The notes beneath the pieces are model-generated. The model was not told the DNA's origin. It worked only from the letters and a program-made list of their open reading frames with translations, and made no database searches. This document shows, one piece after another, positions 3,001-33,503 of a DNA stretch of 37,827 nucleotides. Positions within the stretch are counted from its first letter, which is position 1; each line of letters opens with the position of its first letter. This DNA is from Dactylosporangium siamense (lineage in GTDB: Bacteria; Actinomycetota; Actinomycetes; Mycobacteriales; Micromonosporaceae): assembly GCF_016862795.1 (NCBI RefSeq), contig NZ_BONQ01000204.1, forward strand, positions 1 to 37,827, in the 5' to 3' direction. Both the position numbers and the translations under genes were made by a program.

Positions 3001-4910
3001 GCACGAAGATCACCCGGTACCTCAACGACGCCACGGGCAACCGGCTGATCCGCCGCGACGACACCGGGACCACGCTGTACCTGCCCGGCCAGGAGCTGCA
3101 CGTCAGCCTGACCGGGACGAAATCGGCGACCCGGTACTACAGCCACGCCGGGATGACGGTCGCCGTCCGGACCAACGACGGCAACCTGACCTACCTCGCC
3201 GCGGACCCGCACGGGACCGCGACGGTGGCGATGGACTCCGTCACCGGCGCGGTGCAGAAGCGCCGCACGACGCCGTTCGGCGAGGAGCGGGGCACGGCGG
3301 TCGTCAGCTGGCCGGGTGACAAGGGCTTTGTCGGCGGTACGAAGGATCAGTCGACGGGTTTGACGCATCTCGGTGCGCGGGAGTACGACCCGAAACTCGG
3401 TCGGTTCGTCTCGGTGGACCCGCTGACGATTCCCGAGGATCCGCAGCGGCTCAACGGCTACGCGTACGGCAACAACGCACCGATGACGAACGCGGACCCG
3501 ACCGGTGAGGCGTTCCCCGCCGACCCGGACGCCAATCCGCCGAAGACGGTCACGCCGCCGCCCCCGCCGGGCAACCCCGGCGACCTCTCCCCGGATGACC
3601 AGAAGGCCCGCCTCGAGGCCGAGGCGATCAAGAAGAAGTCCATGATGGACATGCTGGTCGAACAGGGCCTGGCGTTCCTGCTGGACTTCCTCGGGATCAC
3701 CGACATCGTCAACTGCATCACCAAGGGCGACGTCGGGGCCTGCGTGAACACCCTCATCGGGATGATCCCGTGGGGCAAGGTGTTCAAGGCGGGCAAGGCG
3801 ATCGTCAAGGGCATCAACAAGGCGTTCGTCGCATACAAGTCCTGGCAACGGGCGATCAAGATCGCCGATGACGTCATCCGGCGCACCGACGACCTCATCG
3901 CCGCGGCCAGAAAGAAGGCCGACGAACTCGCGCAGAAGGCGGGCGCGGGCGCCAAGAAGGCCGACGACGCGCCCGGCGGCCTCGCCGACGACGCGGCGGG
4001 CGCCGGCGGCGCCGCGAAGAAGGGCGACGACGTCGCCGGCGGCGCGGACAACGCCGGGGCCAGCTGCAAACACAGTTTCGACCCCGACACCCGCGTGCGG
4101 ATGGCGGACGGCACCGACCGACCGATCGGGGAGATCGGGGAGGGCGACCAGGTCGTCGCCACCGACCCGCAGACCGGTGAGACCACCACCCGGACCGTCA
4201 CCCGCAAGCACATCAACCTCGACACCGACCTCACCGACCTCACCGTCGCCGACGCCGACGGTGTGCAGACGCTGAACACCACGGCCCACCACCCGTTCTG
4301 GTCGGAGACCCGCCAGAGCTGGGTCGACGCCGCGGACCTGCGGGCCAACGAACAGATCGAGAGCCTCGACGGCAGCGTCGTCGTCATCCTCACGGTGCAC
4401 CGTTTCACCGCGCCGCAGGTGATGCACGACCTCACGGTCGCCGAGATCCACACCTACTACGTCCTCGCCGGCGGCACGCCGGTCCTCGTCCACAACTGCG
4501 GCTACGAGGCCGAGGCGATCGACGCCCAGGCCAGGGCGCAGTCCTTGAAAGACATGTGGACCGCGACCACCAACTACAATGGCGGCACGGTAGCCGTCAT
4601 CGGGGTCCGCAACCTCGACACCGGACAGATCACCAACCGCATCGCCATCAACGGACCACGAAGGATGCCGAAGTGGATTCTCGGAGCCGGCGAGCAGTTC
4701 GTCCGGGGGAAGGGCCACGCGGAGGAGACCATTTTCCGTGGCCTCGCCAGCAATGAGGAGATCCTCTACGGCGGAACGTCGAGAAACGTCTGCAAGAAGC
4801 GTTGCGCACCGTTCATGAGAACCTGGTCCATGCGGCTCGGTGGGCAGGTTTTCAATGGCCGGGACGACAAGACGGCCTACCGCATTTTCTGGCGAACCTG
4901 GCGATATTGA
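1..4910 (+). CDS. RHS/YD-repeat polymorphic toxin with HINT and C-terminal deaminase-like domain (5' partial)
   Basis: The reading frame is open from base 3, so the true start lies before the window; residue numbers here count from the Met codon at 30. Many YD repeats (YDATGRV, YDAVGRP and similar) run to the conserved RHS core end near residues 1115-1134 (GAREYDPKLGRFVSVDPL). A Pro-rich linker and a pretoxin-like helical stretch (about 1220-1290, IGMIPWGKVFKAGKAI) follow, then an Ala/Lys/Asp-rich linker. The HINT domain begins at Cys1346 and ends VLVHNC at 1490, with an internal TTAHHPFW block, so autoproteolysis there is likely. The remaining 136 residues form the toxin: strands around VAVIGVRN, then H1563-A-E1565 and C1588...C1592, which resemble the zinc site and catalytic Glu of deaminase-superfamily toxins. 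The second Cys pair is spaced CxxxC rather than the usual CxxC, so the deaminase call is moderate. RHS toxins form a shell around the toxin and act in competition between cells. The likely immunity gene begins 8 bases downstream. Confidence 0.9.
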   Translation, partial: SGGKLAVRYMPTNCSTTSLPVSPQANTLRCMPVKGVDEAYPNRVDWFHKYVVDRVTQADAYSGMQPVVTDYEYVGDAAWHFDEIDGIIPVEDKTWSQWRGYGTVITRTGDGTDGTRRKAETRFFRGMNGDRNGSGGTKTVNVTDSRGGSIPDDDRFAGMTRETTSYLDDTTRLTTTIDDPWVSAVQASQTKPWGTTVSTKADVAISRSFTYLTPTTVRETKVVKTLTSEGVVTAIENQGVVGDSTDDQCTKYTFASNAGKHLMNLPTRVQQLTVACSVANPAKGDVLSDSRNYYQSDTLGVIGDRGLLTKVEQVNGYTGAAASTATYQIQSTAAYDATGRVTDATDVRGNLTHTDYVRTGNGPITRVVTTDALGHVSYTDNDPAWGAPVKMVDDTNDDLTTEAELDALGRVLNVWGPTRKRGVDSPDSTFSYLISQTGYSVVATSTLQAPSQVPGQPVGTFAPQYSSKYELYDGLLRLRQTQIASPTGGRSVSTIEYDTQNRIVKRSGPMTNDAPPGFSFLPVNEASLPNQVRTSYDGAGRTTAEVLYGHTSTGLAEKWRTTTAYGGDQITTTPPAGGVATTATYDPQGRLWKLWQYKTAGVYDETKFSYTKDGQQSVVEDSAGNKWEYFYDDLHRVNRLKEPDRGESTLTYTQYGEVATTTDARGKKLGTTYDAVGRPVEVKDVTTTPEKKLTSWVYDTLKLGMPTSSSRWVGSDEYRTSVIEYDAYLRPTKTRIGIPMIEGGLAGTYDYSATYNFDGSPDTTSMPALASLPAETLTHRYNAWGLPTSTVGISSYVQASAYNSFAEPLSMTVGATGSGKKSLLLQFTYEEATRRLLTASAKPNGGASVANATYGYDAAGNVVSVFDQPTASGQQADYQCFSHDYLRRMTEAWTPATADCATSGRTVANLGGPAKYWSSYTYDKTGNRKTEQRHELPGEPTTTYNYGTTGHRLNTTTVGGSTLTSYQYDASGNTTQRVVGGATQDLEWDTEGSLAKVTEGTKITRYLNDATGNRLIRRDDTGTTLYLPGQELHVSLTGTKSATRYYSHAGMTVAVRTNDGNLTYLAADPHGTATVAMDSVTGAVQKRRTTPFGEERGTAVVSWPGDKGFVGGTKDQSTGLTHLGAREYDPKLGRFVSVDPLTIPEDPQRLNGYAYGNNAPMTNADPTGEAFPADPDANPPKTVTPPPPPGNPGDLSPDDQKARLEAEAIKKKSMMDMLVEQGLAFLLDFLGITDIVNCITKGDVGACVNTLIGMIPWGKVFKAGKAIVKGINKAFVAYKSWQRAIKIADDVIRRTDDLIAAARKKADELAQKAGAGAKKADDAPGGLADDAAGAGGAAKKGDDVAGGADNAGASCKHSFDPDTRVRMADGTDRPIGEIGEGDQVVATDPQTGETTTRTVTRKHINLDTDLTDLTVADADGVQTLNTTAHHPFWSETRQSWVDAADLRANEQIESLDGSVVVILTVHRFTAPQVMHDLTVAEIHTYYVLAGGTPVLVHNCGYEAEAIDAQARAQSLKDMWTATTNYNGGTVAVIGVRNLDTGQITNRIAINGPRRMPKWILGAGEQFVRGKGHAEETIFRGLASNEEILYGGTSRNVCKKRCAPFMRTWSMRLGGQVFNGRDDKTAYRIFWRTWRY

Positions 4911-5638: not shown

Positions 5639-6341
5639 GGCGCCCTGAGGCCAGGGCTGACGCCCATCGGCCGATGGTGAATGGATGCATCGTCGTGTCG
5701 GAGAGCACCGTCGGGGGGCCGGTGCGGCGATACATGCGGAGCAGCTTCCAGGCGGTGACGGCGTACCAGGCGAAGGCGACGGTCGCGAGGGTCCGGTTGA
5801 CCAGGCCGCCGATGCCGGCCGCGGCCATGGGCGACGCGGGATTGAGCACGAAGAACGTGGTGATGAACAGCGCCACGGAGACCACCGCGGTCCAGGTGGA
5901 GTAGCGGGCCAGGCCGCGCCAGCCGGGTACGCGACGGAAAACCCGGCCGCCGTAGCAGGCGGCCACCACCGCCGACACCATCACGATGAGGAACCCGAAC
6001 AGGAAATGGAACAGCCCGGTGGCCGGAGCGGCCGGGAACACGACGGCACCAACCGTGCCGACGGCGCCGGCGCCGATCACGACGGCTCCCCAGCTTGCGG
6101 TGCGGACGCCGACGAGGGGGGCCATCGCCCGGCGGAACCCGACGGCGTACCCCACGAGCAGGATGCCGAAGAGGAGGAAGTTGGCGTTCTGGAGCCAGGC
6201 GTTCTCGCCAACGCCGAGGTCGCTGATGGCGTCGGTCCGGGCCGAGTAGCCGGGACGGAGCCACCCGGCCAGGGTCGCGATGACCAGGAAGAGGATCGGA
6301 CCGGCGAGGCCGGCGGCGAGCAGGAAACGCGATGGACGCAC
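5610..6341 (-). CDS. DUF998-family membrane protein
   Basis: This is a 243-residue protein with about six hydrophobic helices. The N-terminus MRPSRFLLAAGLAGPILFLV followed by RPGYSARTDAISDLG and NANFLLFG is the typical DUF998 pattern, and length fits the family. Function is unknown; related proteins are integral membrane proteins of actinobacteria. The start is a GTG at 6341, two bases after the SDR stop codon, with GGAGGG at the end of the SDR gene as ribosome site, so the two genes are translationally coupled. The C-terminal tail after the last helix is poorly conserved in appearance and overlaps the end of the convergent immunity gene. Confidence 0.8.
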   Translation of the reverse strand: MRPSRFLLAAGLAGPILFLVIATLAGWLRPGYSARTDAISDLGVGENAWLQNANFLLFGILLVGYAVGFRRAMAPLVGVRTASWGAVVIGAGAVGTVGAVVFPAAPATGLFHFLFGFLIVMVSAVVAACYGGRVFRRVPGWRGLARYSTWTAVVSVALFITTFFVLNPASPMAAAGIGGLVNRTLATVAFAWYAVTAWKLLRMYRRTGPPTVLSDTTMHPFTIGRWASALASGRPTGSGRSTP

Positions 6342-6343
6342 AA

Positions 6344-7150
6344 CTATCCCTCCATTGTGGACAGGGCGAACCGCCAGGCGCGGTCGTGCAATGCCGGGTC
6401 GCGCAGGCGCGGGGGGAGTGGCTTCGCCGTCCCCCTGCTTTCGTAGAACCGGCCGGTGTCGATGGGATCGAGGGCCAGCCGGGTCGGGGTCCGGGCGGCC
6501 TTCTCGGGCAGGGCCCGGCGCTGCATCGCGCGCACCAGCGGCCAGATGTAGCGCCAGGCCGGCACGGCCTGCGGGGTCAGCGCCTGGACGCCCGGGGTCC
6601 AGGCCATGCCCGGGTTGACCGCATTGACCCGGGCGCGGACACCGAGTTGCCGGGCGAGGCTCATCGTGGCGAGCAGATTCAACTGTTTGGCCTGGGCGTA
6701 GGCCGCGATCGCGGTATATGGGGTCGGCTCGGTGAACGGGTCGCCGGTGTGCATCGTGAGCGCACTCGACACGACCTGAACGATGTGCACGTCTGAGGCA
6801 AGGACGGGCCGCAACGCCTGGGTGAGGACGATCGGACCGAGGTAGTTCAGGGCGAGGGTCGCCTCGTGGCCCTCGTCCGTCAGCATCCGCGTCGCGAACG
6901 CACCACCGCCGACGTTGTTGACCAGCACATCGAGCCGGGAAACGTCCTCTCGGAGCCGCTGGGCCAGGTCAAGGTTCCCGCGGACGGTCGCGTGGTCGGC
7001 GGGCAGGAAGGTCGCGCCGAGCTCGGCCGCGACCGCCGCCCCGCGCTGCTGGTCGCGTCCGGTGATGAGGACTGTCGCCCCGGCGGCACACAGCTTGGCC
7101 GCGATCTCGCGGCCGATTCCGGCCGTGGCCCCGGTCACCAGCGCGATCAT
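6344..7150 (-). CDS. SDR-family NAD(P)-dependent oxidoreductase
   Basis: This is a 268-residue classical short-chain dehydrogenase/reductase. The nucleotide-binding motif TGATAGIG spans residues 6-13, the NNVGG structural motif 78-82, and the catalytic set is Ser128/129, Tyr151 and Lys155 (YAQAK). The C-terminal part (PGMAWTPGVQ and later) resembles retinol-dehydrogenase/WWOX-like SDRs. An Arg in GRDQQR after the second strand suggests NADP(H) preference. The substrate cannot be told. The gene is divergent from a MarR regulator 160 bp away and coupled to the DUF998 gene; control by that regulator is a reasonable inference, since MarR proteins often repress a divergent enzyme gene. Confidence 0.9.
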   Translation of the reverse strand: MIALVTGATAGIGREIAAKLCAAGATVLITGRDQQRGAAVAAELGATFLPADHATVRGNLDLAQRLREDVSRLDVLVNNVGGGAFATRMLTDEGHEATLALNYLGPIVLTQALRPVLASDVHIVQVVSSALTMHTGDPFTEPTPYTAIAAYAQAKQLNLLATMSLARQLGVRARVNAVNPGMAWTPGVQALTPQAVPAWRYIWPLVRAMQRRALPEKAARTPTRLALDPIDTGRFYESRGTAKPLPPRLRDPALHDRAWRFALSTMEG

Positions 7151-23307: not shown

Positions 23308-26300
23308 TCACCTGGCCCGCCCTGTCGACCGGCGCGGTCCCGGGCGGCTCAACAGGACCATGGCGCCGCCGGTCATGACGATGGCGATGCCGGCGATGAG
23401 GAAGCCAGCAACCGGGACCCCTGTCACTGGGAGGCTGCCGGCGGCCTGCACCGTCACCGCCAGCTTCATGGTGTGCGTGGCGCCGTCCGGGTCGACGCCG
23501 GCCGCGACGAACGCGTGCTCGCCGGGCTCCAGCCCGGCCGGCACCCGCACCGACTTGGTGAACCCGCCGGAGGCGTCGGTCGTGACGGTGCCCAGGACGG
23601 TCGGCGTCGAGTACAGCGTGATGACCGCGGTCGAGAACGGCGCGAAGCCGGTGCCGATCACCACGACGTCCTCGCCCGGTGCCGTGGTGCTGATGGCCCC
23701 TCGGTCGGTGGTCAGCGTCAGGCTGGTGTCCGGCGGGGTCGTGGTGACCGGCGGCGACGTCGGCACGGCCGCGCCCGAGGCTGCCGACGGTGCCGAGGTG
23801 CGGTTGCCGGCGTGGGCGACCACGGTGACCGTGTAGCTGGTGCCGGCGATGCCGCCGAGCACGCACGTGGTCGCGGTGACGGTGCAGGTGGCCGGTCCGG
23901 GTGCCGCCGTCACCGTGTACCCGGTGATCGTGACCCCGTTGGCCGGCGGTGCGGACCAGGTGACGACGACGGACGACACCCCGGCGTTGGTCTGCACGTC
24001 GACCGGCGGCAGCGGCGTCCCAGCGGTCACGCTCGCCGGTGCGCTCGCCGTCCCCGCGCCCGGTGCGTTGCGGGCCCGGACCGTGACCTCGTACGACTGC
24101 CCGTCGGTCAGGCCGGTCACGGTCGCCGTCAGGGCGCCCGCGGTGCCCGGCGTGGTCGTGAGGGCCTGCCAGGTGCTGCCGCCGTCCGTGCTGACCTGGT
24201 AGCCGGTGATGGCAGCGCCGCCGTCGTCGGCCGGTGGCCGGAAGGTCAACGTCGCGCCCTGTGCGGCCGGTCGGGCGCTCAGCGCGGTCGGCGGGCCCGG
24301 CGGGACCGGCGCCGGGGTCACCGCGGCGGTCGTGCCGGCGCCGCCGCCGATCTGGTTCACGGCCCGCACCCGGACGGTGTACGGCGTGCCGTTCGTCAGC
24401 CCGGTCACCGTCCGGTCGGTGCCCAGCGGATTCCAGGTCGTGCCGTCGAGGCTGTACTGGTAGCCGGTGATCGTCGCACCGCCGTTGTCGGCCGGGGGCT
24501 GGAAGGCCAGGAGGGCCGAGGTGTTGCCGGCCGTGGCCGTGTAGGCGGTGACGGGCCCGGGCACGGTCGCCTGTGGGGTGACCGGGGTGCTCGCCGCCGC
24601 GCCCGGCCCGACGGAGTTCGCCGCGCGCAGCTGCACCGCGTATGCGGTGCCGTTGACGAGGCCGGTGATCGTGTTGTTGCCCGGCACCGCGGTCCAGCTG
24701 CTGCCGTTGAGGCTGTACTGGTAGCCGGTGACGGGGTCGCCGCCGTCGCTCGCGGGTGGCGAGAAGGTGAGCACGGCGCGGCCGTTGCCGCCGGTGGCGG
24801 ACACGCTGAGCGGGACCGTCGGCACGGTCGCCGGGGTCGCCGGTTGGGAGGCCGCGATGCCACCGCCGACCGAGTTCTTCGCGCGGACCCGCACGGTGTA
24901 CGCGGTGCCGTTGGTGAGCCCGGTGATGATGTTGTTGCCCGGCAGGGCGATCCAGGTGGTGCCGTTGAGGCTGTACTCGTAGCCGGTGACCGGGCTGCCG
25001 CCGTCGTCAGCGGGCGCCTGGTAGGTCACCGTCACCTGGCTGTCGCCGCGGGTCGCGACGAGGTTGACCGGCACGCCCGGCGCGGTCGGCACCGGCGTCA
25101 CCGCGCCGGACACGGGGGTGCTCTGACCGATGGCGTTCGTCGCCCGCACCCGCACCGTGTACGGGGTGGCGTTGGTGAGGCCGGTGACGGTGCCGGTGCG
25201 CGCGCCGCCGGTCGCGGGCGTGGTGCTCAGCGTGTTCCAGCTGGTCCCGTCCAGGCTCCACTGGTAGTCCAGCAGCGGGCTGCCCCCGTCGTCGGTCGGC
25301 GGCTGGAACGTCACGGTCGCCGAACCGTTCGCCGGGGTCACGACGAGGCTGGTCGGCGCGGCCGGGGCGGTCGGGTTCGGCGTCACCGAGCTGCTCGCTG
25401 CGGGCCCGCCGGCGATCCGGTTCATCGCCCGCACGCGCAGGGTGTATGCGGCGCCGTCGGTGAGCCCGGTGACCGTTGCGGTGCGCGTCCCTCCGGTGCC
25501 GGCCGACGTGGGCAGCGTGGTCCAGGTGGTGCCGTCCAGACTGTACTGGTAGCCGGTGATCGTGGTGCCGCCGTCGTCGTCGGGTGGCACGAACGACACC
25601 CCGGCCCGGCTCGGTCCGGGGGTGAGTGTGAGGCTGGTCGGTGCCGCCGGGACGGAGATGACGCCGACGCCGTACGGGCCGCTGAGCCCGGTCAGCAGCG
25701 ACGTCCGGGTGCCGGTCGAGGTCGTCTTGTACAGGGTGCTGCCGGTGGTGCTGCCGGCGAAGATGTCGCCGAGCGCGTCGACCGCGAGGGCGTGGCTGTA
25801 TCCGGTGCCAGTGGTCACGTTGGTCGGGTTGGTGCCGTCGGCATCGAAGCGGACGACCTGGCTGTTGTCGCCGTCGCTGACGAACACCCGGCCGGCGTGG
25901 TCAAGTGTCAGCCCGGTCGGCGAGCCGAGCCCGGTCGCGAACACCGTCTTCGTCCCGCCCGGTGTGACCTTGGAGACCTGCCCGCCCGTGGACTCGGCGA
26001 CGAACAGGTTGCCGCTCGCGTCGACCGCCATGCCCCACGCGTCTGACAACCCGGTGGCGAAGGTGGTCTGGACCCCGCCGGTGGTCAGCTTCAGCACGGT
26101 GCCGCCGTTGGTGGCATACACGGCGCCGTTGCTGTCGACCGCGACCCCGTACGGGCTCGTGAGCCCGGTGAAGCCCAGCGTCGTCTGCGTCCCGGCGTAG
26201 GTGATCTTGACGATGCGCTGGTTGCTGTTGTCGGCCACGTACACGGTGCCGTCCCGGTCCACGGCCAGGTCGATCGGGTTGCTCAGCCCGCCGCCGAGGG

Positions 26301-26502
26301 TGACCTTGGTGCCGTCCGGGTCGATGCGCAGGATCGAGGTCGCGTTGCCGTCGGACAGCCAGAACTGGGCGTTGGGGTCCGACCCGGCGATCGCCGCGGC
26401 CGCCGGCGCGGCGCTGACCGCGGTGAGCGTCGCGCACGCCGCGATCCCCAGCGTCGCAGTCAACCCGAACCGGCGCGCCAGCAGGCCAGCCATCCCCAAC
26501 AT
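23308..26502 (-). CDS. NHL-repeat / fibronectin-III surface protein with LPxTG sorting signal
   Basis: The 1064-residue protein starts at ATG 26502 after GGAGGG; the open frame 12 codons further upstream overlaps that ribosome site. A signal peptide ends near residue 38 (AAPAAAAIAG). Residues about 40-290 form an NHL-type beta-propeller (repeats such as NPIDLAVDRDGTVYVADNSN). Seven fibronectin type III domains follow to about 890, each with a PPxDDGG..ITGYQYSLDG-like core. A further beta domain (VVVIGTGFAPFSTAVITLYS) precedes LPVTG at 1024-1028, a hydrophobic helix and a basic tail (RPGPRRSTGRAR), the sortase sorting signal. It should be covalently attached to the cell wall as a stalk-and-propeller display protein. 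Its ligand is unknown, and no sortase lies in the window. Confidence 0.88.
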   Translation of the reverse strand: MLGMAGLLARRFGLTATLGIAACATLTAVSAAPAAAAIAGSDPNAQFWLSDGNATSILRIDPDGTKVTLGGGLSNPIDLAVDRDGTVYVADNSNQRIVKITYAGTQTTLGFTGLTSPYGVAVDSNGAVYATNGGTVLKLTTGGVQTTFATGLSDAWGMAVDASGNLFVAESTGGQVSKVTPGGTKTVFATGLGSPTGLTLDHAGRVFVSDGDNSQVVRFDADGTNPTNVTTGTGYSHALAVDALGDIFAGSTTGSTLYKTTSTGTRTSLLTGLSGPYGVGVISVPAAPTSLTLTPGPSRAGVSFVPPDDDGGTTITGYQYSLDGTTWTTLPTSAGTGGTRTATVTGLTDGAAYTLRVRAMNRIAGGPAASSSVTPNPTAPAAPTSLVVTPANGSATVTFQPPTDDGGSPLLDYQWSLDGTSWNTLSTTPATGGARTGTVTGLTNATPYTVRVRATNAIGQSTPVSGAVTPVPTAPGVPVNLVATRGDSQVTVTYQAPADDGGSPVTGYEYSLNGTTWIALPGNNIITGLTNGTAYTVRVRAKNSVGGGIAASQPATPATVPTVPLSVSATGGNGRAVLTFSPPASDGGDPVTGYQYSLNGSSWTAVPGNNTITGLVNGTAYAVQLRAANSVGPGAAASTPVTPQATVPGPVTAYTATAGNTSALLAFQPPADNGGATITGYQYSLDGTTWNPLGTDRTVTGLTNGTPYTVRVRAVNQIGGGAGTTAAVTPAPVPPGPPTALSARPAAQGATLTFRPPADDGGAAITGYQVSTDGGSTWQALTTTPGTAGALTATVTGLTDGQSYEVTVRARNAPGAGTASAPASVTAGTPLPPVDVQTNAGVSSVVVTWSAPPANGVTITGYTVTAAPGPATCTVTATTCVLGGIAGTSYTVTVVAHAGNRTSAPSAASGAAVPTSPPVTTTPPDTSLTLTTDRGAISTTAPGEDVVVIGTGFAPFSTAVITLYSTPTVLGTVTTDASGGFTKSVRVPAGLEPGEHAFVAAGVDPDGATHTMKLAVTVQAAGSLPVTGVPVAGFLIAGIAIVMTGGAMVLLSRPGPRRSTGRAR

Positions 26503-26667
26503 CCGGCAATCCCTCCGCCCGGCAACACGCATCATCACTATGCGTGACCGATTCGTTCCAGTGTGGGGGATTGGTGAAAAGTGCGGCCGCCGAGACGCTG
26601 CTCAACCTGCCGACAGTTCCCGGTCGGTCCTAGCCGGGCATGGAACGGCGTGGAACTCCTGTCCTGC

Positions 26668-26820
26668 ATGAGGTCCTTGTGTAAGGCGGCCGCGGCGCTC
26701 GCCGCCGTTGCTGCCATGGTCATCGGTTCGGTTCCGTCGCCCGTGCAGGGCGACCCGGGTGCGCAGGTCCTGGCGCTGGGTGAAAGTACGCAGGACGATC
26801 CCGATGAGGGAGGCCAGTAG
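26668..26820 (+). CDS. 50-residue secreted peptide, copy 1
   Basis: The frame ATG 26668 to TAG 26820 gives a signal-peptide-like N-terminus (MRSLCKAAAALAAVAAMVIG) and a short polar, acidic mature end (DPGAQVLALG, then ESTQDDPDEGGQ). A second copy of equal length lies at 33283-33435; the two share 97 of the last 100 coding bases and an identical last 16 residues. The region upstream is also conserved (GGAACGGC, G/T, TGGAAC). No ribosome site precedes the ATG; a GTG 18 bases upstream is in frame and could be the start. Function is unknown. Conservation of the mature end suggests a secreted signal or structural peptide. A 9-bp hairpin follows the stop codon by 5 bases. Confidence 0.6.
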   Translation: MRSLCKAAAALAAVAAMVIGSVPSPVQGDPGAQVLALGESTQDDPDEGGQ

Positions 26821-26825
26821 GCAGT

Positions 26826-26851
26826 CCGGCACGGACGTCTACCCGTGCCGG
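26826..26851 (+). terminator. Hairpin terminator after peptide copy 1
   Basis: CCGGCACGG (26826-26834) and CCGTGCCGG (26843-26851) form a perfect 9-bp stem with an 8-base loop, starting 5 bases after the peptide stop codon. Confidence 0.6.
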
Positions 26852-26869
26852 GCCGCTTGGTGAACGGAT

Positions 26870-26915
26870 AGCCGTCTCCGGGTCGACGCCCCGTGTCGGC
26901 GACCCGGAGACGGCT
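26870..26915. terminator. 16-bp perfect hairpin, probable terminator of the ArsR-SRPBCC-VOC operon
   Basis: AGCCGTCTCCGGGTCG (26870-26885) pairs perfectly with CGACCCGGAGACGGCT (26900-26915) around a 14-base loop. It sits 3 bases beyond the VOC stop codon on the minus strand and also faces the plus-strand peptide gene, so it can stop transcription from both sides. Confidence 0.7.
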
Positions 26916-26918
26916 GCC

Positions 26919-27308
26919 TCAGGTGCCGTCTGTTTCGAGGTCGATCTGCGCAAGGTCCCAGGTGGACAAGCAGAACGGATGGCCCGCTGGATCGGAGTAG
27001 ACGAAGCAGTGGTCGGAGTTCGGCTGGAATTCGAAGCGGTGGGCTCCGGCGGCAAGGACCCGCGCGTTGGTGGCTGCCAGATCGTCGACGAAGAAGTCGA
27101 GGTGCATCGGTGTGCCGCCCGCCGGCCACGCCGGCGGGCGGAAGTCGTCGACCTGCTGGAAGGCGATGTGTCCGTTGGGTCCGGTGACGGTGGCCCAGCG
27201 TGAGTTGCCCTTCGCGGCGCCGTGAGTGATCAGCGCGTAGAACCTGGCCAGCGCGATCGCGTCGGGTGCGTTGACCGTGGCGCCGCTGAGTCTGATCGTG
27301 TCGGGCAT
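26919..27308 (-). CDS. VOC-family (glyoxalase-like) protein
   Basis: The 129-residue product has the two beta-alpha-beta-beta-beta halves of the vicinal oxygen chelate fold: an N-terminal half (LSGATVNAPDAIALARFYAL and GHIAFQQVDDFRPP) and a C-terminal half (MHLDFFVDDLAATNARVLAA, then CFVYSDPAGHPFCLST). The Glu of the usual final metal motif is not obvious. It matches the group often annotated as glyoxalase/bleomycin-resistance-like, which binds or modifies small molecules. It is the third gene of an operon: its ATG overlaps the SRPBCC stop codon by one base (TGATG). Confidence 0.85.
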   Translation of the reverse strand: MPDTIRLSGATVNAPDAIALARFYALITHGAAKGNSRWATVTGPNGHIAFQQVDDFRPPAWPAGGTPMHLDFFVDDLAATNARVLAAGAHRFEFQPNSDHCFVYSDPAGHPFCLSTWDLAQIDLETDGT

Positions 27309-27832
27309 CAGGCGATCGTCATCTGTTCATACGTGGGTGTGAGCTCCGTCCACCGTGTGCGCCAGTGCGGCTCCGGTGACTGCTCCGTCCAGGTCTGTGG
27401 TCCGGCGGCAGGCTCGTCCCCGAGTGACCGGCCGAGGTCCTCGAGGTGGGCCTGCCACCCGGCGCCGTAGAAGTGGAGGCGATTCAGGGGAAGGCCGCGT
27501 TCCTCGACGATCAGGCGGGTGCGGGAGCCTTCCTGGCTCAGCCATGCCTCGATCTGGGCCTCGTCGCTGGTGCCCGGCTCCGTGGTGATCAGCAGGTGGT
27601 GTGGTTTCTCGCAGGCGTCGATGCGTCCGGGTCCCGTCCACGTGCTGGTGAAGACGGCGTGGATGGAGCCGCCGACCCGCAGCTCGCCGGAGACTTTGGC
27701 GATCCAGCGGGCGAGCCGTTCCGGGTTTGTGCAGGCGTCCCACAGGTCGTCGATGTCGGTGTCGTAGAGGTCCTCGACGCGCACCGCGCCGAGTGTCGTG
27801 TCGAGTGGACGCATGGTCCCGATGATGTTCAT
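27308..27832 (-). CDS. SRPBCC/AHSA1-domain protein
   Basis: The 174-residue product has the START-like AHSA1 pattern: VRVEDLYDTDIDDLWDACTN, PERLARWIAKVSGELRVGGS, and the terminal helix GAGWQAHLEDLGRSLGD. These form a hydrophobic pocket for small lipophilic ligands. ArsR-AHSA1 gene pairs are very common, with the AHSA1 protein thought to take part in ligand response. The start ATG overlaps the ArsR stop codon (ATGA), and the stop overlaps the VOC start, so all three are translated from one message. Confidence 0.9.
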   Translation of the reverse strand: MNIIGTMRPLDTTLGAVRVEDLYDTDIDDLWDACTNPERLARWIAKVSGELRVGGSIHAVFTSTWTGPGRIDACEKPHHLLITTEPGTSDEAQIEAWLSQEGSRTRLIVEERGLPLNRLHFYGAGWQAHLEDLGRSLGDEPAAGPQTWTEQSPEPHWRTRWTELTPTYEQMTIA

Positions 27833-28146
27833 GTTCGTGCCTTCTTCCCCCGGGTGATCTCCGTGTGCAGGGCGTCGAGCCGGTTGCGCCAGAGGGCGCG
27901 GTACGGCTCCAGCCAGTCGTCCACCTCGGTGAGCGCCTCTGGTCGCAGCGTGTAGATGCGGCGCTGCGCGTCCTGGCGGACGTCGACCAGTCCGGCCTCG
28001 CGCAGCACGCGGAGGTGGCGCGACACCCCTGGCCGGGCGATCGGCAGTGCCTCCGCGAGCTCGCCCGCCGTTGCCGGGTTCCTGCGGAGGATCTCCAGCA
28101 CCGTTCGCCGGCTCGGATCCGCCAGTGCCTGCAATACCGCATCCAT
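27829..28146 (-). CDS. ArsR-family transcriptional regulator
   Basis: The 105-residue winged-helix protein begins at ATG 28146. DPSRRTVLEILRRNPATAGE, then LAEALPIARPGVSRHLRVLR and the wing GLVDVRQDAQRRIYTL give the standard ArsR core. The Cys metal site of the classical arsenic sensors is absent, as in the SRPBCC-linked subgroup. The frame open upstream to 28587 crosses the operator and the transposase remnant and is not part of this gene. Two tandem palindromes directly upstream are the likely autoregulatory operator. Confidence 0.9.
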   Translation of the reverse strand: MDAVLQALADPSRRTVLEILRRNPATAGELAEALPIARPGVSRHLRVLREAGLVDVRQDAQRRIYTLRPEALTEVDDWLEPYRALWRNRLDALHTEITRGKKART

Positions 28147-28159
28147 GATGACCACGAGC

Positions 28160-28191
28160 GTAACCAGATGGGTACGTAACCGCAAGGGTAC
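28160..28191 (-). promoter_or_regulatory. Tandem palindromic operators upstream of arsR
   Basis: GTAACC-N4-GGGTAC occurs twice back to back (28160-28175 and 28176-28191; spacers AGAT and GCAA). Each unit is itself an imperfect inverted repeat. They lie 14 bases before the arsR ATG, and TATATG (minus strand, 28196-28191) at the far edge could be the -10 element. This is the expected place for an ArsR autoregulatory site. Confidence 0.6.
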
Positions 28192-28447
28192 ATATAGGTC
28201 GGCATCAGTTGTAGCTCGCGGATGACCTTGTAGAGGGTCGGGCCGGCGCATCCGCTTTTGGGTCGAGCCGCAGCGTGGTGATGAACGGATGCGCGGCGGT
28301 GACGAGGGTGACGTGACGGTGCCAGCCGGCGGCGGTCCGCCCGCGGTGGTTCGATGCGGGCGCGAACGCGAGATCGGCCGGACACGACCCGGCCAAGACG
28401 ATCGAGGACCGGGCGGGCACCGCGACAGCTGGCGCCCACCCGGGCAT
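28190..28447 (-). mobile_element. Transposase C-terminal remnant (IS701/IS4-like)
   Basis: On the minus strand one frame reads AAGWHRHVTLVTAAHPFITT and then LRLDPKADAPARP, and a second frame continues TLYKVIRELQL. Together these resemble the conserved C-terminal end of IS701/IS4-type transposases (W..RH.TL...AHAFL). A frameshift separates the two parts, the N-terminal two thirds are gone and no terminal repeats are visible. This is a dead fragment, next to the ArsR operator. Confidence 0.45.
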
Positions 28448-28456
28448 CGCGGTGTC

Positions 28457-29080
28457 CTACAGCTTGGCCAGCAGGCCCTGCATCTCGGCGATCTCGGCGG
28501 TCTGGCTGGTGGCGATGTCACCGGCGAGCTTCTTCGCCGCCGGGTCCTGGCCCTGGGCCTGTTCGGTCTTGGCCATCTCCACTGCACCTTGGTGGTGCTT
28601 GATCATCATCCGCAGGAACATCTTGTCGAAGGCGGTGCCGGTGGCCTTGGAGAGCTCCTGCATCTCCTGGTCGGTCATCATGCCCGGCATCTCGGCGCCC
28701 ATGTCGCCGTGGTTCATGCCGCCAGGGCTGGGGACCGGCTCACCCCACGCGGTCAGCCACCCCGACATGGTCGTGATCTCCGGTTCCTGCGCCTTGGCGA
28801 TCTTCCCGGCGAGGGCCTTGACCTCGGGCGTGCTCGCCTTGGCCTGGGCCGCTTTCGCCATATCCAGGGCCTGACGGTGGTGCGGGATCATGTCGGTGGC
28901 GAACTGGACGTCAGTGCCGTTGAATGTGGCGCCGGACTTCGGCGCTGCCGCCGACGTCGGGGTGCTGCCGCCCATGTTGCCGTGGTCCATCCCGCCGTCG
29001 GCGCCGCAGGCGCCGGCGAGCAGGACGAGGCCGAGCGCGCCGGTGGCCGGAGCGGCACGACGCAGATTGATCGTACGCAT
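28457..29080 (-). CDS. DUF305-domain lipoprotein (first copy)
   Basis: The 207-residue product starts at ATG 29080 with AGGAG upstream. A lipobox (GLVLLAGAC) marks it as a lipoprotein, followed by a Met/His-containing linker (MDHGNMGG). Two DUF305 halves each carry a paired-His helix: FATDMIPHHRQALDMAK and FLRMMIKHHQGAVEMAK. DUF305 is a ferritin-like fold with possible metal binding, and its genes often sit with copper exporters, as here. A second His/Met linker (GGMNHGDMGAEMPGMM) joins the halves. It is downstream of the DUF6153 gene on the same strand (123 bp). Confidence 0.88.
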   Translation of the reverse strand: MRTINLRRAAPATGALGLVLLAGACGADGGMDHGNMGGSTPTSAAAPKSGATFNGTDVQFATDMIPHHRQALDMAKAAQAKASTPEVKALAGKIAKAQEPEITTMSGWLTAWGEPVPSPGGMNHGDMGAEMPGMMTDQEMQELSKATGTAFDKMFLRMMIKHHQGAVEMAKTEQAQGQDPAAKKLAGDIATSQTAEIAEMQGLLAKL

Positions 29081-29203
29081 AGCGGAACTCAACTCCTGGG
29101 AATCCGAAAAGGGTGGCGCGGACGCGCCGGAACGTCGCCGCAGCCTGTTACCGCCCGCGAGGTGCGGGGTGCGGTCTGCGGCGTCTGGGTGCCTGGAGTC
29201 GGC

Positions 29204-29623
29204 CTACGTCCGGGAGATCGAGAGCATGGTCAGCGATGGCGGGCCGCAGCCGCTGCCGGCGGCCGCGTCGACGGCGGTCGTGGCCGGCCAGGCTCGGGTG
29301 GCCGGGCGGGGTGCTGTCAGCGGCGATGGGGTCAAGGCGGGAATGTGCATGCCTTCGGCGGCCGGCGGGGTTGACTGACACATCGACGCGGCGTGGCCGC
29401 TGCCGTGAGGGGCGTCGCGACACGGCGTGCCGTGCTCGCCGGCAACGCAATGCGGCGCAGCTGCCATCGCCATACGGGTGTGGCCGCCGGCGTACCCGCC
29501 CGCCGGGAGGGGAGCCATCGCCAGGGTGTGCATCCAGGCGACGCCGAGGACGAGTAGGACCGCCACGAACGCTCCGGCGCGGCACGCCGCGCCCGCCGTG
29601 CGTTTATGGCCGCCTCCCGGCAC
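29204..29623 (-). CDS. DUF6153-family membrane/secreted protein
   Basis: The 139-residue product has one N-terminal hydrophobic helix (AFVAVLLVLGVAWMHTLAMA) followed by a His/Met/Cys-containing outer part (HTRMAMAAAPHCVAGEH, HGSGHAASMCQ) and the family-typical end PPSLTMLSISRT. Actinobacterial DUF6153 proteins share this layout and are found near copper genes. GTG 29623 is chosen as start because AGGAGG lies 8 bases before it; the GTG at 29632 overlaps that site. The gene is divergent from the copper ATPase, with the CsoR-type palindrome between them. A role in copper handling is inferred. Confidence 0.75.
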   Translation of the reverse strand: MPGGGHKRTAGAACRAGAFVAVLLVLGVAWMHTLAMAPLPAGGYAGGHTRMAMAAAPHCVAGEHGTPCRDAPHGSGHAASMCQSTPPAAEGMHIPALTPSPLTAPRPATRAWPATTAVDAAAGSGCGPPSLTMLSISRT

Positions 29624-29674
29624 CCGACTCACCTCCTACGCAGCATCGTAGCGGTCACATCCGGGGCCCAGCCC

Positions 29675-29703
29675 TTGGCGTCAATACCCCCCGGGGGTAT
29701 GTT
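29675..29703 (+). promoter_or_regulatory. Copper ATPase promoter with CsoR-type operator
   Basis: ATACCCCCCGGGGGTAT (29684-29700) is a near-perfect palindrome of the GC-rich type bound by CsoR copper repressors. It fills the 17-base spacer between TTGGCG (-35, 29675-29680) and TATGTT (-10, 29698-29703), so a bound repressor would block polymerase. Cu(I) should release it. No csoR gene is present in the window. Confidence 0.75.
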
Positions 29704-29726
29704 GAGAAGGGCGAAAGGAGATGGCC

Positions 29727-31937
29727 ATGTCAGAACAACACCACGGGACAGCGGCGGCCCATCACAACGGCCACAGCCAAGCTGACCACTCCGAGCATCA
29801 CGGCCAGCACGCACCGGCCCGTGGCCACCCGGGTGGTGGTCACACCGATCTCACCCGGCCGCATCCAGCCGGCGGCCACCCAAGACATGGCAGCGCACAC
29901 AGCAACGGACACGGTGGCGGGCATGACAAGCACGCCGGGCACGACCCAGAGGTGTTCCGGCGCAAGTTCTGGTTGACCCTCGCCCTGACCGTGCCGATCG
30001 TGGCGACCAGCCACATGGTGATGGGTTGGCTGGGCTATCAGCTGGACTTCCCCGGCATGGATCTGGTCGGCCCGGTGCTGGGCACCGTCGTGTTCACCTA
30101 CGGCGGCTGGCCGTTCCTCGCCGGCGCTGTCAGCGAACTGCGCGACCGTGCGCCTGGAATGATGCTGCTCATCTCCATGGCGATCACCGTGGCGTACATC
30201 GCCTCCCTGGCGACCAGCCTCGGCTGGTTCGACCTGGAGTTCTGGTGGGAGCTGGCCGCGCTGGTCACGATCATGCTGCTGGGCCATTGGCAGGAGATGA
30301 AGGCGATCGGGCAGGCCAGCGGCGCGCTCGCCGCCCTCGCCGCGCTACTGCCGGACGAGGCGGAACGCCTCGACGCGGCCGGCCAGGCGCTACCGGTGCA
30401 CCTCGCTGAGCTGCGGGTCGGCGATGTAGTGCTGGTGCGATCCGGTGGCCGGGTCCCCGCCGACGGACGGATCGTGCAGGGCAGCGCCGAACTCGACGAG
30501 TCGATGGTGACCGGCGAGTCCCGGCCGGTCGCCCGGACGGTCGGGGATCGGGTCGTGGCCGGCACCGTTGCCACCGACTCCGCGTTGCGGGTGCAGGTCG
30601 ACGCGGTCGGCGACGACACCGCCCTGGCCGGTATCCAGCGCCTGGTCGGGCAGGCGCAGCAGTCCCGCGGCCGGGCCCAGGTCCTCGCCGACCGGTTCGC
30701 TGCCTGGCTGTTCTACATCGCCGCCGGCGCCGGCCTGATCACCTTCGCCACCTGGTGGGCGCTCGGTGACCTGGACGAGTCCGTCGTGCGGACCGTCACG
30801 GTGCTGGTCATCGCCTGCCCGCACGCCCTCGGCCTGGCCATCCCGCTGGTGATCTCCCTGTCCACCGCGGTCGCGGCAAGCGCCGGGATTCTGGTGAAGG
30901 ACCGCCTCGCCCTGGAGCGGATGCGCACCGTCGACGCGGTGCTGTTCGACAAGACCGGCACCCTGACCAAAGGTGCGCACACCGTCACTGGTGTCGCTGC
31001 CGCCGACGGGCGCACGGAAGTGCAGATTCTGCAGCTCACGGCGGCAGTGGAAGCCGACAGTGAGCACCCTCTTGCCCGCGCCATCGTTGCAGCAGCTCAC
31101 CGCGACGGCACAACCGGTATCCACGCCGAGGGGTTCCAGTCGCTCACCGGCCGCGGGGTCCAGGCCACCGTCGACGGGATCAACTACGCCGTGGGTGGCC
31201 CCGCGCTGCTGCGGGAGCTGCACGTGACGGTGCCCGACGACGTCGCCGCCGCCGCCGCGGCGTGGAGCGGGCGCGGCGCCGCCGTGCTGCACCTGGTCCG
31301 TCTCGACCCGGACAGTGCCGATGACCGAGCAAGGAGCATCGGCGCACTGGCCCTCGAGGACGAGGTGCGGCCCGAAGCCCGCGAGGCGATCACCCAGCTC
31401 CGCAAGGAGGGCATCACCAAGATCGTCATGATCACCGGGGACGCCCGGCAGGTTGCCGACGCGGTCGCCGCCGACCTCGGCCTGCGCCCCGGTGTCGACG
31501 AGGTGTTTGCCGAGGTGCTGCCCGCGGACAAGGACCGCACCGTGGCCGCGCTGCAGGAGCGAGGGCTGCGGGTGGCGATGGTCGGCGACGGAGTCAACGA
31601 CGCCCCCGCGCTGGCCCGCGCCGACGTCGGGATCGCCATCGGTGCGGGCACCGACGTGGCGATCGAGTCCGCCGGGGTGGTCCTGGCATCCTCGGACCCG
31701 CGTGGGGTCACCGGCGTGATCCGGCTCTCGCAGGCCAGCTACCGCAAGATGGTCCAGAACCTGGCCTGGGCGGCCGGGTACAACGTTGTCGCCATTCCGC
31801 TCGCGGCGGGGGTCCTGGCCTGGGCCGGAGTCACGCTCAGCCCGGCCGTCGGCGCCGTCCTGATGTCGGTCTCGACGATCGTGGTCGCGCTCAACGCCCA
31901 ACTCCTGCGCCGGGTGCGGCTGGCGCCCGCGCCGTGA
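29727..31937 (+). CDS. copB: P1B-3-type (CopB-like) copper-translocating ATPase
   Basis: The 736-residue protein starts at ATG 29727, six bases after AGGAG; the ATG at 29721 directly touches that site. The first 70 residues are very His-rich with no CxxC domain, as in CopB-type pumps. Key motifs are the transport-site CPH (Cys364, in IACPHALGL), DKTGTLT (Asp408), HPLA, and GDGVNDAP (from Gly620), with the P1B-3 helix signatures NLAWAAGYN and GAVLMSVSTI. All catalytic motifs are intact. P1B-3 pumps export Cu(II), Cu(I) or Ag(I) across the cytoplasmic membrane. Control by a CsoR-type operator, and DUF305 lipoproteins on both sides, fit copper detoxification. Confidence 0.93.
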   Translation: MSEQHHGTAAAHHNGHSQADHSEHHGQHAPARGHPGGGHTDLTRPHPAGGHPRHGSAHSNGHGGGHDKHAGHDPEVFRRKFWLTLALTVPIVATSHMVMGWLGYQLDFPGMDLVGPVLGTVVFTYGGWPFLAGAVSELRDRAPGMMLLISMAITVAYIASLATSLGWFDLEFWWELAALVTIMLLGHWQEMKAIGQASGALAALAALLPDEAERLDAAGQALPVHLAELRVGDVVLVRSGGRVPADGRIVQGSAELDESMVTGESRPVARTVGDRVVAGTVATDSALRVQVDAVGDDTALAGIQRLVGQAQQSRGRAQVLADRFAAWLFYIAAGAGLITFATWWALGDLDESVVRTVTVLVIACPHALGLAIPLVISLSTAVAASAGILVKDRLALERMRTVDAVLFDKTGTLTKGAHTVTGVAAADGRTEVQILQLTAAVEADSEHPLARAIVAAAHRDGTTGIHAEGFQSLTGRGVQATVDGINYAVGGPALLRELHVTVPDDVAAAAAAWSGRGAAVLHLVRLDPDSADDRARSIGALALEDEVRPEAREAITQLRKEGITKIVMITGDARQVADAVAADLGLRPGVDEVFAEVLPADKDRTVAALQERGLRVAMVGDGVNDAPALARADVGIAIGAGTDVAIESAGVVLASSDPRGVTGVIRLSQASYRKMVQNLAWAAGYNVVAIPLAAGVLAWAGVTLSPAVGAVLMSVSTIVVALNAQLLRRVRLAPAP

Positions 31938-32386
31938 ACCACCGTGCGGGCCGCCTCGATGGGCGGGACGCCGCGCTGTCCCGCCCATCACAGGATGCTC
32001 TCGCACCGCTCGTCGCCATCGGCGCGCAACGCCGTTCGATCCGGGCTGGTCCATCTCCGCAGTGGCGTCCGGTGTGGTCGCCGTCGGCGTGCCGCCTGCC
32101 GCCGCGCCGCTGGCGTGGTCTGCGTACTCGCGGACGACTGGCGAACTGGATAAGGACCGGGTGAGTTTCTGGTTGGTGGTGTTGTGCCCGTATAGCGCCA
32201 CCCCGTTCGGGAAGCATGCCGTGGATGCCCGGGGTGTGAGGTGGCGCCGAATTCGGCCGTGGCCGGATTGCAGCTCCGAGGTCACGCCGGCCGGGCGATG
32301 ACGCCCGCGTTCGGTATGACCGTGTCACAGGGGTAGTCGCTCAGGGCGATGCAGCTCGCCACACCGAGTCGAGAGAGTTGAGCGCC
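31938..32386. other. Intergenic region after the copper ATPase
   Basis: Apart from the terminator at 31958-31989 I see no gene in this 449-bp stretch. Frames on both strands read as low-complexity Arg/Pro/Ala shadow. The promoter of the second DUF305 gene should lie near its end; GAGAGAG at 32371-32377 may serve as its ribosome site. Confidence 0.4.
31958..31989 (+). terminator. 12-bp hairpin terminator of the copper ATPase gene
   Basis: GATGGGCGGGAC (31958-31969) and GTCCCGCCCATC (31978-31989) form a perfect 12-bp stem with an 8-base loop, 20 bases after the stop codon. Confidence 0.75.
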
Positions 32387-33070
32387 ATGAGGTACTCCAC
32401 CCGAGGCGGCGCCATGCTGGTGGGCGCCGTCCTGACTGTCACCGTCACGCTCGCTGCTTGCAGTGACACCGCAAGCGGCGGCGGTAGTCCGACGGCACCG
32501 AACAACGGCAGCGTCAGCGTCAACCCGACCTTTAATAACGTCGACGCGATGTTCGCCCAGATGATGATCCCGCATCACGAGCAAGCCGTGGAGATGGCCT
32601 CCCTCGCCGAGATGAAGGCGGCCGATCCGGACGTCAAACAGCTCGCCGACAAGATCATTGCCGGGCAGAAGGCGGAGATCGCAACGATGAAGGGCTGGTT
32701 GGTCGCCTGGGGACAGCCGACCACGATGCCGAGCTGTCCCGGAATGCATTGCATGCCGAGCATGATGCCGAATGGAAAATCGCCGAATGGCATGATGCCG
32801 AGCGGGATGATGCCCAGCGGGATGCCGACGATGCCGGGCCCGATGTCCGGCGCAGACATGGCGAAGCTGCAGGCGGCGACCGGCACCGACTTCGACAAGC
32901 TGTTTCTCCAGATGATGGTCGTTCACCACCAGGGAGCGATCACGATGGCTCAGGCGGAGCTGGCCCATGGGACCAACCCGGACGCCAAGGCTCTCGCTAG
33001 CCGCATCGTGAAGACGCAGCAAGCCGAGATCGTGGCGATGCAGCAGATGGCCGGCCAACTGCATTCCTGA
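32387..33070 (+). CDS. DUF305-domain lipoprotein with Met-rich linker (second copy)
   Basis: The 227-residue product begins at ATG 32387. The lipobox LTVTVTLAAC marks a lipoprotein. The two DUF305 halves carry MFAQMMIPHHEQAVEMA and FLQMMVVHHQGAITMAQAE. Between them lies an unusual stretch with CPGMHCMPSMMPNG followed by near-repeats MMPSGMMPSGMPTMPG, which resembles Met-rich Cu(I)-binding segments. The protein is a diverged paralogue of the DUF305 protein on the other side of the ATPase gene. An extracytoplasmic copper-binding or delivery role is inferred. Confidence 0.88.
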   Translation: MRYSTRGGAMLVGAVLTVTVTLAACSDTASGGGSPTAPNNGSVSVNPTFNNVDAMFAQMMIPHHEQAVEMASLAEMKAADPDVKQLADKIIAGQKAEIATMKGWLVAWGQPTTMPSCPGMHCMPSMMPNGKSPNGMMPSGMMPSGMPTMPGPMSGADMAKLQAATGTDFDKLFLQMMVVHHQGAITMAQAELAHGTNPDAKALASRIVKTQQAEIVAMQQMAGQLHS

Positions 33071-33282
33071 CAGCCAGTTGGAGTCCTCCAAGCAAGGGAT
33101 CCGCGCGCCGTGGATCTCGCTGCTCGTCCTCGGCGTCACCGCCGCCCCGCAGGTCGTCATCGTGCTGCTCTCCCGCCGAGCAGCTGGAGTTTGCGGTGAT
33201 GCGTGCATGGCGATGTGCCGCCGGGTGCTGGCGGCACCCACCCGGGTTCACGGCGTGGAACGGCTTGGAACACCTATCGGGC

Positions 33283-33435
33283 ATGAGTTCCTTGTGGAGG
33301 GCGGCCTCGGCGCTCGCCGTCGTCGCTGCCCTGGTCATCGGTTCGGTTCCGTCGCCTGTGCAGGGCGACCCGGGTGCGCGGGTCCTGGCGCTGGGTGAAA
33401 GTACGCAGGACGATCCCGACGAGGGAGGCCAGTAG
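33283..33435 (+). CDS. 50-residue secreted peptide, copy 2
   Basis: The frame ATG 33283 to TAG 33435 has the same length as the copy at 26668-26820. The signal-peptide part differs (MSSLWRAASALAVVAALVIG) while the mature end (DPGARVLALG, then ESTQDDPDEGGQ) differs by one residue (Arg for Gln). Only 3 of the last 100 coding bases differ, against about 9 in the first 53, so the 3' half is either recently converted between copies or under strong constraint. Upstream, WNG.E.LS-coding sequence is also shared; a TTG 18 bases before the ATG is the alternative start. The preceding 200 bases hold a short hydrophobic frame (PWISLLVLGVTAAPQVVIVL) of doubtful coding status. Confidence 0.6.
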   Translation: MSSLWRAASALAVVAALVIGSVPSPVQGDPGARVLALGESTQDDPDEGGQ

Positions 33436-33503
33436 GCGTTCCCAGCGTGGCCTCAGCGCAGATGTCCGGGGAAGCGGGAAACTGAGCCTGCTATGGTCCG
33501 ACC

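Follow-up and report, generated by a model that had tools for sequence, protein, structure and literature searches.

The closest described counterparts of the genes considered here are the RRNPP systems (Rap, Rgg, NprR, PlcR, PrgX) of Bacillota, which PMC10075063 delimits by a small Sec-type pro-peptide of 10 to 100 amino acids (aa) and an adjacent receptor of 250 to 500 aa made of tetratricopeptide repeats (TPR). Signals of Actinomycetota are characterized as typically enzyme-made small molecules (PMC10075063). No RRNPP-type system in Actinobacteria appeared in the titles or abstract openings of the literature searched, and the text of PMC9765709 is without the words Actinobacteria, Actinomycet-, and Streptomyces. 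Here we describe two copies, A and B, of a 50-residue peptide open reading frame (ORF) in a 37,827-nt stretch of Dactylosporangium siamense DNA (contig NZ_BONQ01000204.1; hereafter the window), each preceded by a short direct-repeat box that also stands ahead of signal-peptide-like starts in related genomes. In RRNPP systems, the message is usually cut from the C-terminal end of the pro-peptide. New here are the box, its tie to signal-peptide-like starts, an ATG spacing of 8 to 9 nt, and chains in which the box precedes small peptides and a TPR protein. Very probably, A and B are true genes that encode one and the same exported peptide, most likely under control of the box.

Results and discussion

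Twin peptide reading frames behind a direct-repeat box

A sequence-only reading of the window had described two small ORFs of equal length about 6.6 kb apart, and both 50-codon ORFs are present, spaced 6615 nt from each other. Their proteins are 86% identical, and the final 17 residues (VLALGESTQDDPDEGGQ) are the same in both. Each begins with an N-terminal start that is basic in copy A and carries a single Arg (position 6) in copy B, followed by a hydrophobic stretch and then an acidic tail; read by eye, a signal-peptidase cut after residue 28, between VQG and D, is plausible. Both copies pass our hydropathy filter for a Sec-type signal peptide, which is the sense in which we use signal-peptide-like throughout. 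Signal-peptide-like ORFs of 40 to 110 aa make up 9 of 266 in the window, A and B included, and the same class was rarer in first-order Markov sequence (1 to 4 of 441 to 453 in five runs). GC content dips at codon position 2 (27 of 50, compared with 38 and 38 at the other positions; p = 0.006), and this dip, together with the fixed 8-nt distance to the ATG from a box that exported-protein genes of relatives also have, backs the earlier proposal of a small exported peptide.

The box at the 5′ end of each copy is a TGGAAC-N4-TGGAAC direct repeat with a 10-bp period (TGGAACGGCGTGGAACTCC in copy A and TGGAACGGCTTGGAACACC in copy B). Within the window, the 19-nt box matches only at A and B (0.06 matches expected in the window), and over 36 places with at most one mismatch the commonest bases are TGGAACGGGATGGAACGCC. 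Upstream GTG/TTG alternatives (26650 and 33265) fall within the box, and the ATG codons at 26668 and 33283 are favored as starts because both sit exactly 8 nt past it. The organism's own genome has four occurrences of the core TGGAACGNCNTGGAAC; A and B account for one each, and a single triple repeat on another contig (C108) accounts for the remaining two. Among 354 genomes of the family, the core was found at 35 places in 28 genomes, compared with 5 for the reversed pattern, while the 19-nt form with up to two mismatches was found at 51 places in 21 genomes of 101 relatives, compared with 11 for its reversal. A crude gene finder placed the 16-nt core inside genes at 13 of its 33 loci (the 33 include A, B, and two overlapping triple-box loci), and the exact core therefore partly marks coding sequence. 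No mention of the box sequence turned up in the literature searched.

We then considered what stands behind the box at 56 places, comprising the 51 from the search of 101 relatives (49 after tandem repeats were merged) and 7 from the core search with at most two mismatches in the 19-nt form. At 27 of the 56, a signal-peptide-like start follows on the strand of the box at a distance of 3 to 110 nt. The rate at random positions drawn from these loci is 6.8% (333/4896), and the opposite strand has such a start at 10/56. The proportion is 25/54 without A and B, 19/36 for places with at most one mismatch, and 6/11 for those with none. The first such starts (n = 27) fall mainly at two distances, 16 of them at 32 to 73 nt from the box and most others at 8 to 9 nt. 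An ATG at an offset of 8 or 9 nt is found at 11 of the 56 places, compared with 0.65 per other offset. Eight of these 11 have a signal-peptide-like start (A, B, L155, L189, L215, L170, L206, and L210), and at L179, L183, and L186 the ATG is there without one. The 8-to-9-nt group suggests leaderless transcripts, and the box as a whole may mark exported proteins that are possibly switched together.

Two other box places lie in the organism's own genome. On contig C94 (L226, 6394-7046), a box lies 37 nt ahead of a gene that starts with TTG and encodes an exported ricin-type lectin. On contig C108 (L141, 1501-1529), a triple decamer box occupies the gap ahead of a lanthipeptide-synthetase-like gene, whose product carries RamC_N and kinase domains above the Pfam cut-off; the LanL model scores below its cut-off on this protein, which is cut by the locus end. 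Residues 29 to 50 of A and B contain no Cys, the residue that lanthipeptide-type precursors carry in the core.

Box-peptide-TPR chains in related genomes

Six further box places, beyond those of A and B, lead into ORFs of 40 to 63 residues with a signal-peptide-like start (L155/L220, L170/L222, L171, L191/L221, L204, and L210). In three of these six small-peptide loci (L220, L221, and L222), the box is followed by a chain of genes with 4-nt overlaps that ends in a TPR protein of 277 to 335 residues. L220, from the genus of the window, encodes a 54-aa peptide ending in GQNHNQVLL, a second peptide of 49 aa, and a 335-aa TPR protein, and L221, from a different genus, encodes a 42-aa peptide ending in ATNHNQVLL and a 277-aa TPR protein, so that the end NHNQVLL is common to two genera. 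The third chain, L222, comes from the same genome as L221; on its minus strand (5897-6486) are five successive peptides of 38 to 41 aa with hydrophobic starts and variants of an EPL-type end (CEPLEES, TEPLVES, LEPLVTS, CEPLVAQ, and CEPIAP), ahead of the gene for a 331-aa TPR protein. The hydropathy filter accepts the leading peptide of every chain, and the peptides further along in L220 and L222 were judged by eye. The three TPR genes lie at 5803-6810 in L220, 7073-7906 in L221, and 4905-5900 in L222. TPR_12 scores above its cut-off in all three large proteins, those of L220 and L221 match at an E value of ~1e-56 and that of L222 at ~1e-20, and the nearest solved structures by sequence for the L220 and L221 proteins are kinesin light chains. 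In length, TPR content, and adjacency, all three chains agree with the published RRNPP description (PMC10075063). A search of plasmids gave no match to the L221 TPR protein or its 42-aa peptide, and no mention of NHNQVLL or its variants turned up in the literature searched.

Alongside the chain in L220 (2110-7117) are two BTAD/Trans_reg_C genes of SARP type, which are candidate binders of the box. The remaining small box peptides (L171/L225, L204/L223, and L210/L224) have neighbors other than a TPR chain. One of them, in a genome of the same genus (G001; L224, 6915-7953), is a 51-aa exported peptide with ALGEP after the signal peptide, and, like copy B, it has a gene for a HAD hydrolase next to it.

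How the two copies arose and whether the peptide is conserved

The repeat shared by A and B is longer than the ORF. The two units of 191 nt align without gaps and with 18 differences, starting 4 nt ahead of the box (31 nt ahead of the ATG) and ending 7 nt past the stop. The sequence-only reading had called the flanks after the stop unrelated, and indeed 100 nt of downstream flank is no more alike than shuffled sequence (71% identity versus 74%; reached by 152 of 200 shuffles). The same applies upstream, where the reading had claimed nothing (74% versus 73%; 83 of 200 shuffles). When the GC-rich genome (12.7 Mb in 296 contigs) was searched at the DNA level, only the two units were recovered, at E values of 3e-95 and 8e-71, and no third copy of comparable strength, the next matches being 23 to 33 nt long at 3e-4. 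Within the ORF, the last 100 nt hold exactly the 3 differences first reported, and the first 53 nt hold 7 rather than about 9 (7/53 versus 3/100; Fisher p = 0.033); adding the conserved stretch before the ATG gives 13/84 versus 3/100 (p = 0.003). The ORF shows very little synonymous divergence (3 of 40.3 sites), so that decay of the flanks alone is insufficient to make them so unlike. Instead, we infer either that a short unit was copied or that conversion holds only the 191-nt unit alike.

Strong selection on the mature peptide had been offered as the other possible cause of the likeness, next to gene conversion. The estimates of pS (0.074) and pN (0.062) over the ORF are close, and the 7 amino-acid changes equal what random placement of 10 substitutions yields (mean, 7.2; P = 0.58). 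In the longer frame from 26638, 10 changes compare with 11.4 expected (P = 0.27), and third positions hold 8 of the 16 differences (p = 0.13). The selection part of that proposal thus finds no backing in these counts, in which 10 substitutions afford little power; gene conversion may account for the likeness. Equal rates and the lack of a homologue with a conserved frame had been named beforehand as telling against selection, and on those terms the claim would fail, again at low power.

In 101 relatives, the A/B peptide matched in its own genome only, at the two places described, and in seven genomes of the genus (E up to 10) the best match outside its own genome was at 0.185. A hidden Markov model of the peptide gave matches at an E value of ≤0.1 in at least 150 of 354 family genomes; the best outside its own genome, among the matches listed, was at 1.7e-4 and lay within a 401-residue frame. 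None of 57 loci inspected from the genus and family searches held a short exported ORF with the A/B tail. Pattern searches of a collection of 85k genomes returned 595 and 252 stretches, none confirmed by tblastn, viral contigs returned 43 with zero confirmed, and plasmid and phage collections gave no match to the peptide; all of these collections may omit the genome itself and its close kin. The statement that no described family matches agrees with these searches and with Pfam and NCBIfam. At the DNA level, the unit matched, besides its own genome, three others among the 354, once each (E values of 1e-6 to 7e-6). These three matches (L128, L129, and L130, each at 1501-1532) are stretches of 28 to 32 nt that are 94 to 96% identical to positions 106 to 137 of unit A. 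Several weak peptide matches were to the signal peptide plus LGDS of enzymes that we take to be GDSL-type hydrolases, and an origin of A and B as a remnant of such a gene was rejected because the two reading frames share their stop codon.

These data bear on whether the unit might be no more than a copied piece of DNA, with the ORF a by-product of GC-rich sequence. The chance-level share of protein-altering changes (7 of 10) would fit, as would the failure to find homologues and the abundance of ORFs of such length in all frames of the window. We nevertheless consider this improbable, given that the box with its 8-nt ATG spacing recurs before signal-peptide genes elsewhere, that the unit ends match the box and the stop, and that GC content dips at codon position 2.

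A possible signaling role

Our best overall explanation, offered tentatively as one that comes close to being probable, is a pair of box-controlled exported pro-peptides with a signaling tail that would be read by a TPR protein. Each copy would be a minimal gene, in which a direct-repeat box of TGGAAC type is separated by 8 nt from the ATG that opens the reading frame for an exported pro-peptide of 50 residues, closed by a stop. A box-binding regulator may govern A and B jointly with other exported proteins, with transcripts that would begin at or close to the ATG and therefore lack a leader. Signal peptidase would cut off ~28 residues and release the acidic tail, DPGA(Q/R)VLALGESTQDDPDEGGQ. 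By analogy with RRNPP, a TPR protein might read this tail, or its C-terminal end, after uptake. The two copies would then supply two doses of one message, with the receptor gene elsewhere in the genome. Since the window yielded no TPR gene to phmmer, run with three TPR queries, or to Pfam, applied to 28 of its translations, and the rest of the genome was not searched for one, we infer signaling from the peptide length, the box, the spacing, and the identical C-terminal end. Taken by itself, a signaling role for the A/B peptides is, by analogy, a real possibility that stops somewhat short of probable.

Several observations weigh against this explanation, beginning with the empty result for a TPR gene in the window. 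The A/B tail is unlike every TPR-linked peptide found, and each of the two boxes has 2 mismatches to the 19-nt form used in the search. Of the 56 box places, 29 have no signal-peptide-like start, some being intragenic and some lying ahead of genes that fail the filter, and that filter is our own, which is a weakness. For many box genes, the product is an ordinary exported protein, for instance a ricin-type lectin. Finally, the substitutions between A and B give no sign of constraint at the protein level, and conservation of the frame across species is absent, the searches made having found no homologue in another genome.

Some of these points favor an exported peptide of the box set that does not signal, for example an acidic peptide that binds wall or ions, inhibits, or is structural and that would leave the cell together with lectins and other exported proteins. 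Only 3 of the 27 signal-peptide-like box places lead to a TPR chain, a box gene in the same genome encodes the exported lectin, and the neighbors of A and B yielded no TPR gene. On the other hand, 22 Cys-free mature residues leave little room for a fold, and small box peptides of similar length are coupled to TPR genes elsewhere. We regard a nonsignaling peptide as possible, with less than an even claim on the evidence. A box ahead of exported peptides, of which some are coupled to TPR genes, would offer a direct route to finding and testing gene-encoded peptide signals in Actinomycetota, and the twins may belong to an undescribed peptide-signaling system. Even without signaling, the box delimits a group of exported proteins possibly switched together.

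Genomic neighborhood

The features of the two copies are collected in Table 1. Neighbors of A and B are FN3/NHL, glyoxalase-like, DUF305, and HAD genes, and the block between the copies encodes two proteins of the CopM/DUF305 type along with a copper P-type ATPase, with the CopM-family and copper-ATPase models above cut-off. The order DUF305-DUF6153-ATPase is kept in two loci of the same genus (L108 and L110). Synteny with relatives is too poor to bear on an origin of the copies through insertion of the copper block.

Table 1. Positions of the two copies and adjacent hairpins in the window
Feature	Position	Strand	Remarks
Repeat unit, copy A	26637..26827	+	191 nt; 18 differences from copy B
Box, copy A	26641..26659	+	2/19 mismatches to the searched 19-nt form
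Pro-peptide ORF (50 residues), copy A	26668..26820	+	ATG 8 nt past box
Hairpin, 11-bp stem, possible terminator	26824..26853	+	3 nt past copy A stop; fold of 26821-26925, z = -6.1; no T run
Second, very stable hairpin	26854..26925		Between copy A and convergent glyoxalase-like gene; same fold
Repeat unit, copy B	33252..33442	+	191 nt; pairs with copy A
Box, copy B	33256..33274	+	2/19 mismatches to the searched 19-nt form
Pro-peptide ORF (50 residues), copy B	33283..33435	+	ATG 8 nt past box

Since the copies flank CopM/DUF305 and copper-ATPase genes, they might encode a peptide for extracellular copper handling, and acidic tails are able to bind metal. His, Cys, and Met are all missing from the tail, however, nothing similar to the peptide was found in 20 ATPase loci of relatives (best E value, 0.055), and box genes elsewhere, where scanned, are not copper genes. 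We consider a copper function very unlikely and the vicinity of copper genes probably accidental.

Downstream of copy B, the fold has a z score of 0.7, compared with -6.1 behind copy A. A terminator scan, which requires a T run, and a sigma-70 promoter scan both returned nothing at copy A. A structured RNA was also entertained and rejected, with a best Rfam E value of 0.056 at the copy A hairpin, far below the gathering score, and repeat fold z scores of -1.6 to 0.2 on both strands. Further from the copies, a large protein at 30-4910 has Pretoxin-HINT above cut-off and a sub-threshold YD-shell match. The FN3/NHL-repeat protein on the minus strand at 23308-26538, divergent from copy A, has an LPVTG-like C-terminal end, presumably a sortase motif.

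Comparison with known systems

CopM/DUF305 proteins are neighbors of both copies and have no sequence relation to the peptide. Among regulators, the SARP (BTAD) family is represented by the two BTAD/Trans_reg_C genes beside the L220 chain. Heptameric direct repeats for SARP-LAL binding are named in the title of PMC5930380; the box described here has a 10-bp period, and any regulator that would bind it is putative. The TPR proteins of L220 to L222 resemble the FxSxx-COOH TPR protein (NCBIfam NF040586) in being paired with a small peptide and score 71.8, 71.5, and 32.5 bits on its model, all under the 300-bit cut-off, and their peptides lack an FxSxx end.

At 50 aa, A and B fall within the length range of RRNPP pro-peptides, and unlike RRNPP genes they have no receptor gene of 250 to 500 aa with TPR next door. 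It is rather unlikely, if worth stating, that, in this bacterial family, box-controlled pro-peptides and TPR receptors together constitute a gene-encoded signaling system akin to RRNPP of Bacillota, with A and B a duplicated orphan signal sharing one C-terminal message and the same box driving a set of exported proteins. The chains of L220 to L222 differ from RRNPP systems in belonging to another bacterial family, in their 4-nt overlaps, in their common box, and, for L220 and L221, in TPR proteins whose closest sequence matches among solved structures are kinesin light chains. What they have in common with RRNPP systems is a small pro-peptide, putatively of Sec type, and, at the end of each chain, an adjacent TPR protein of 277 to 335 aa.
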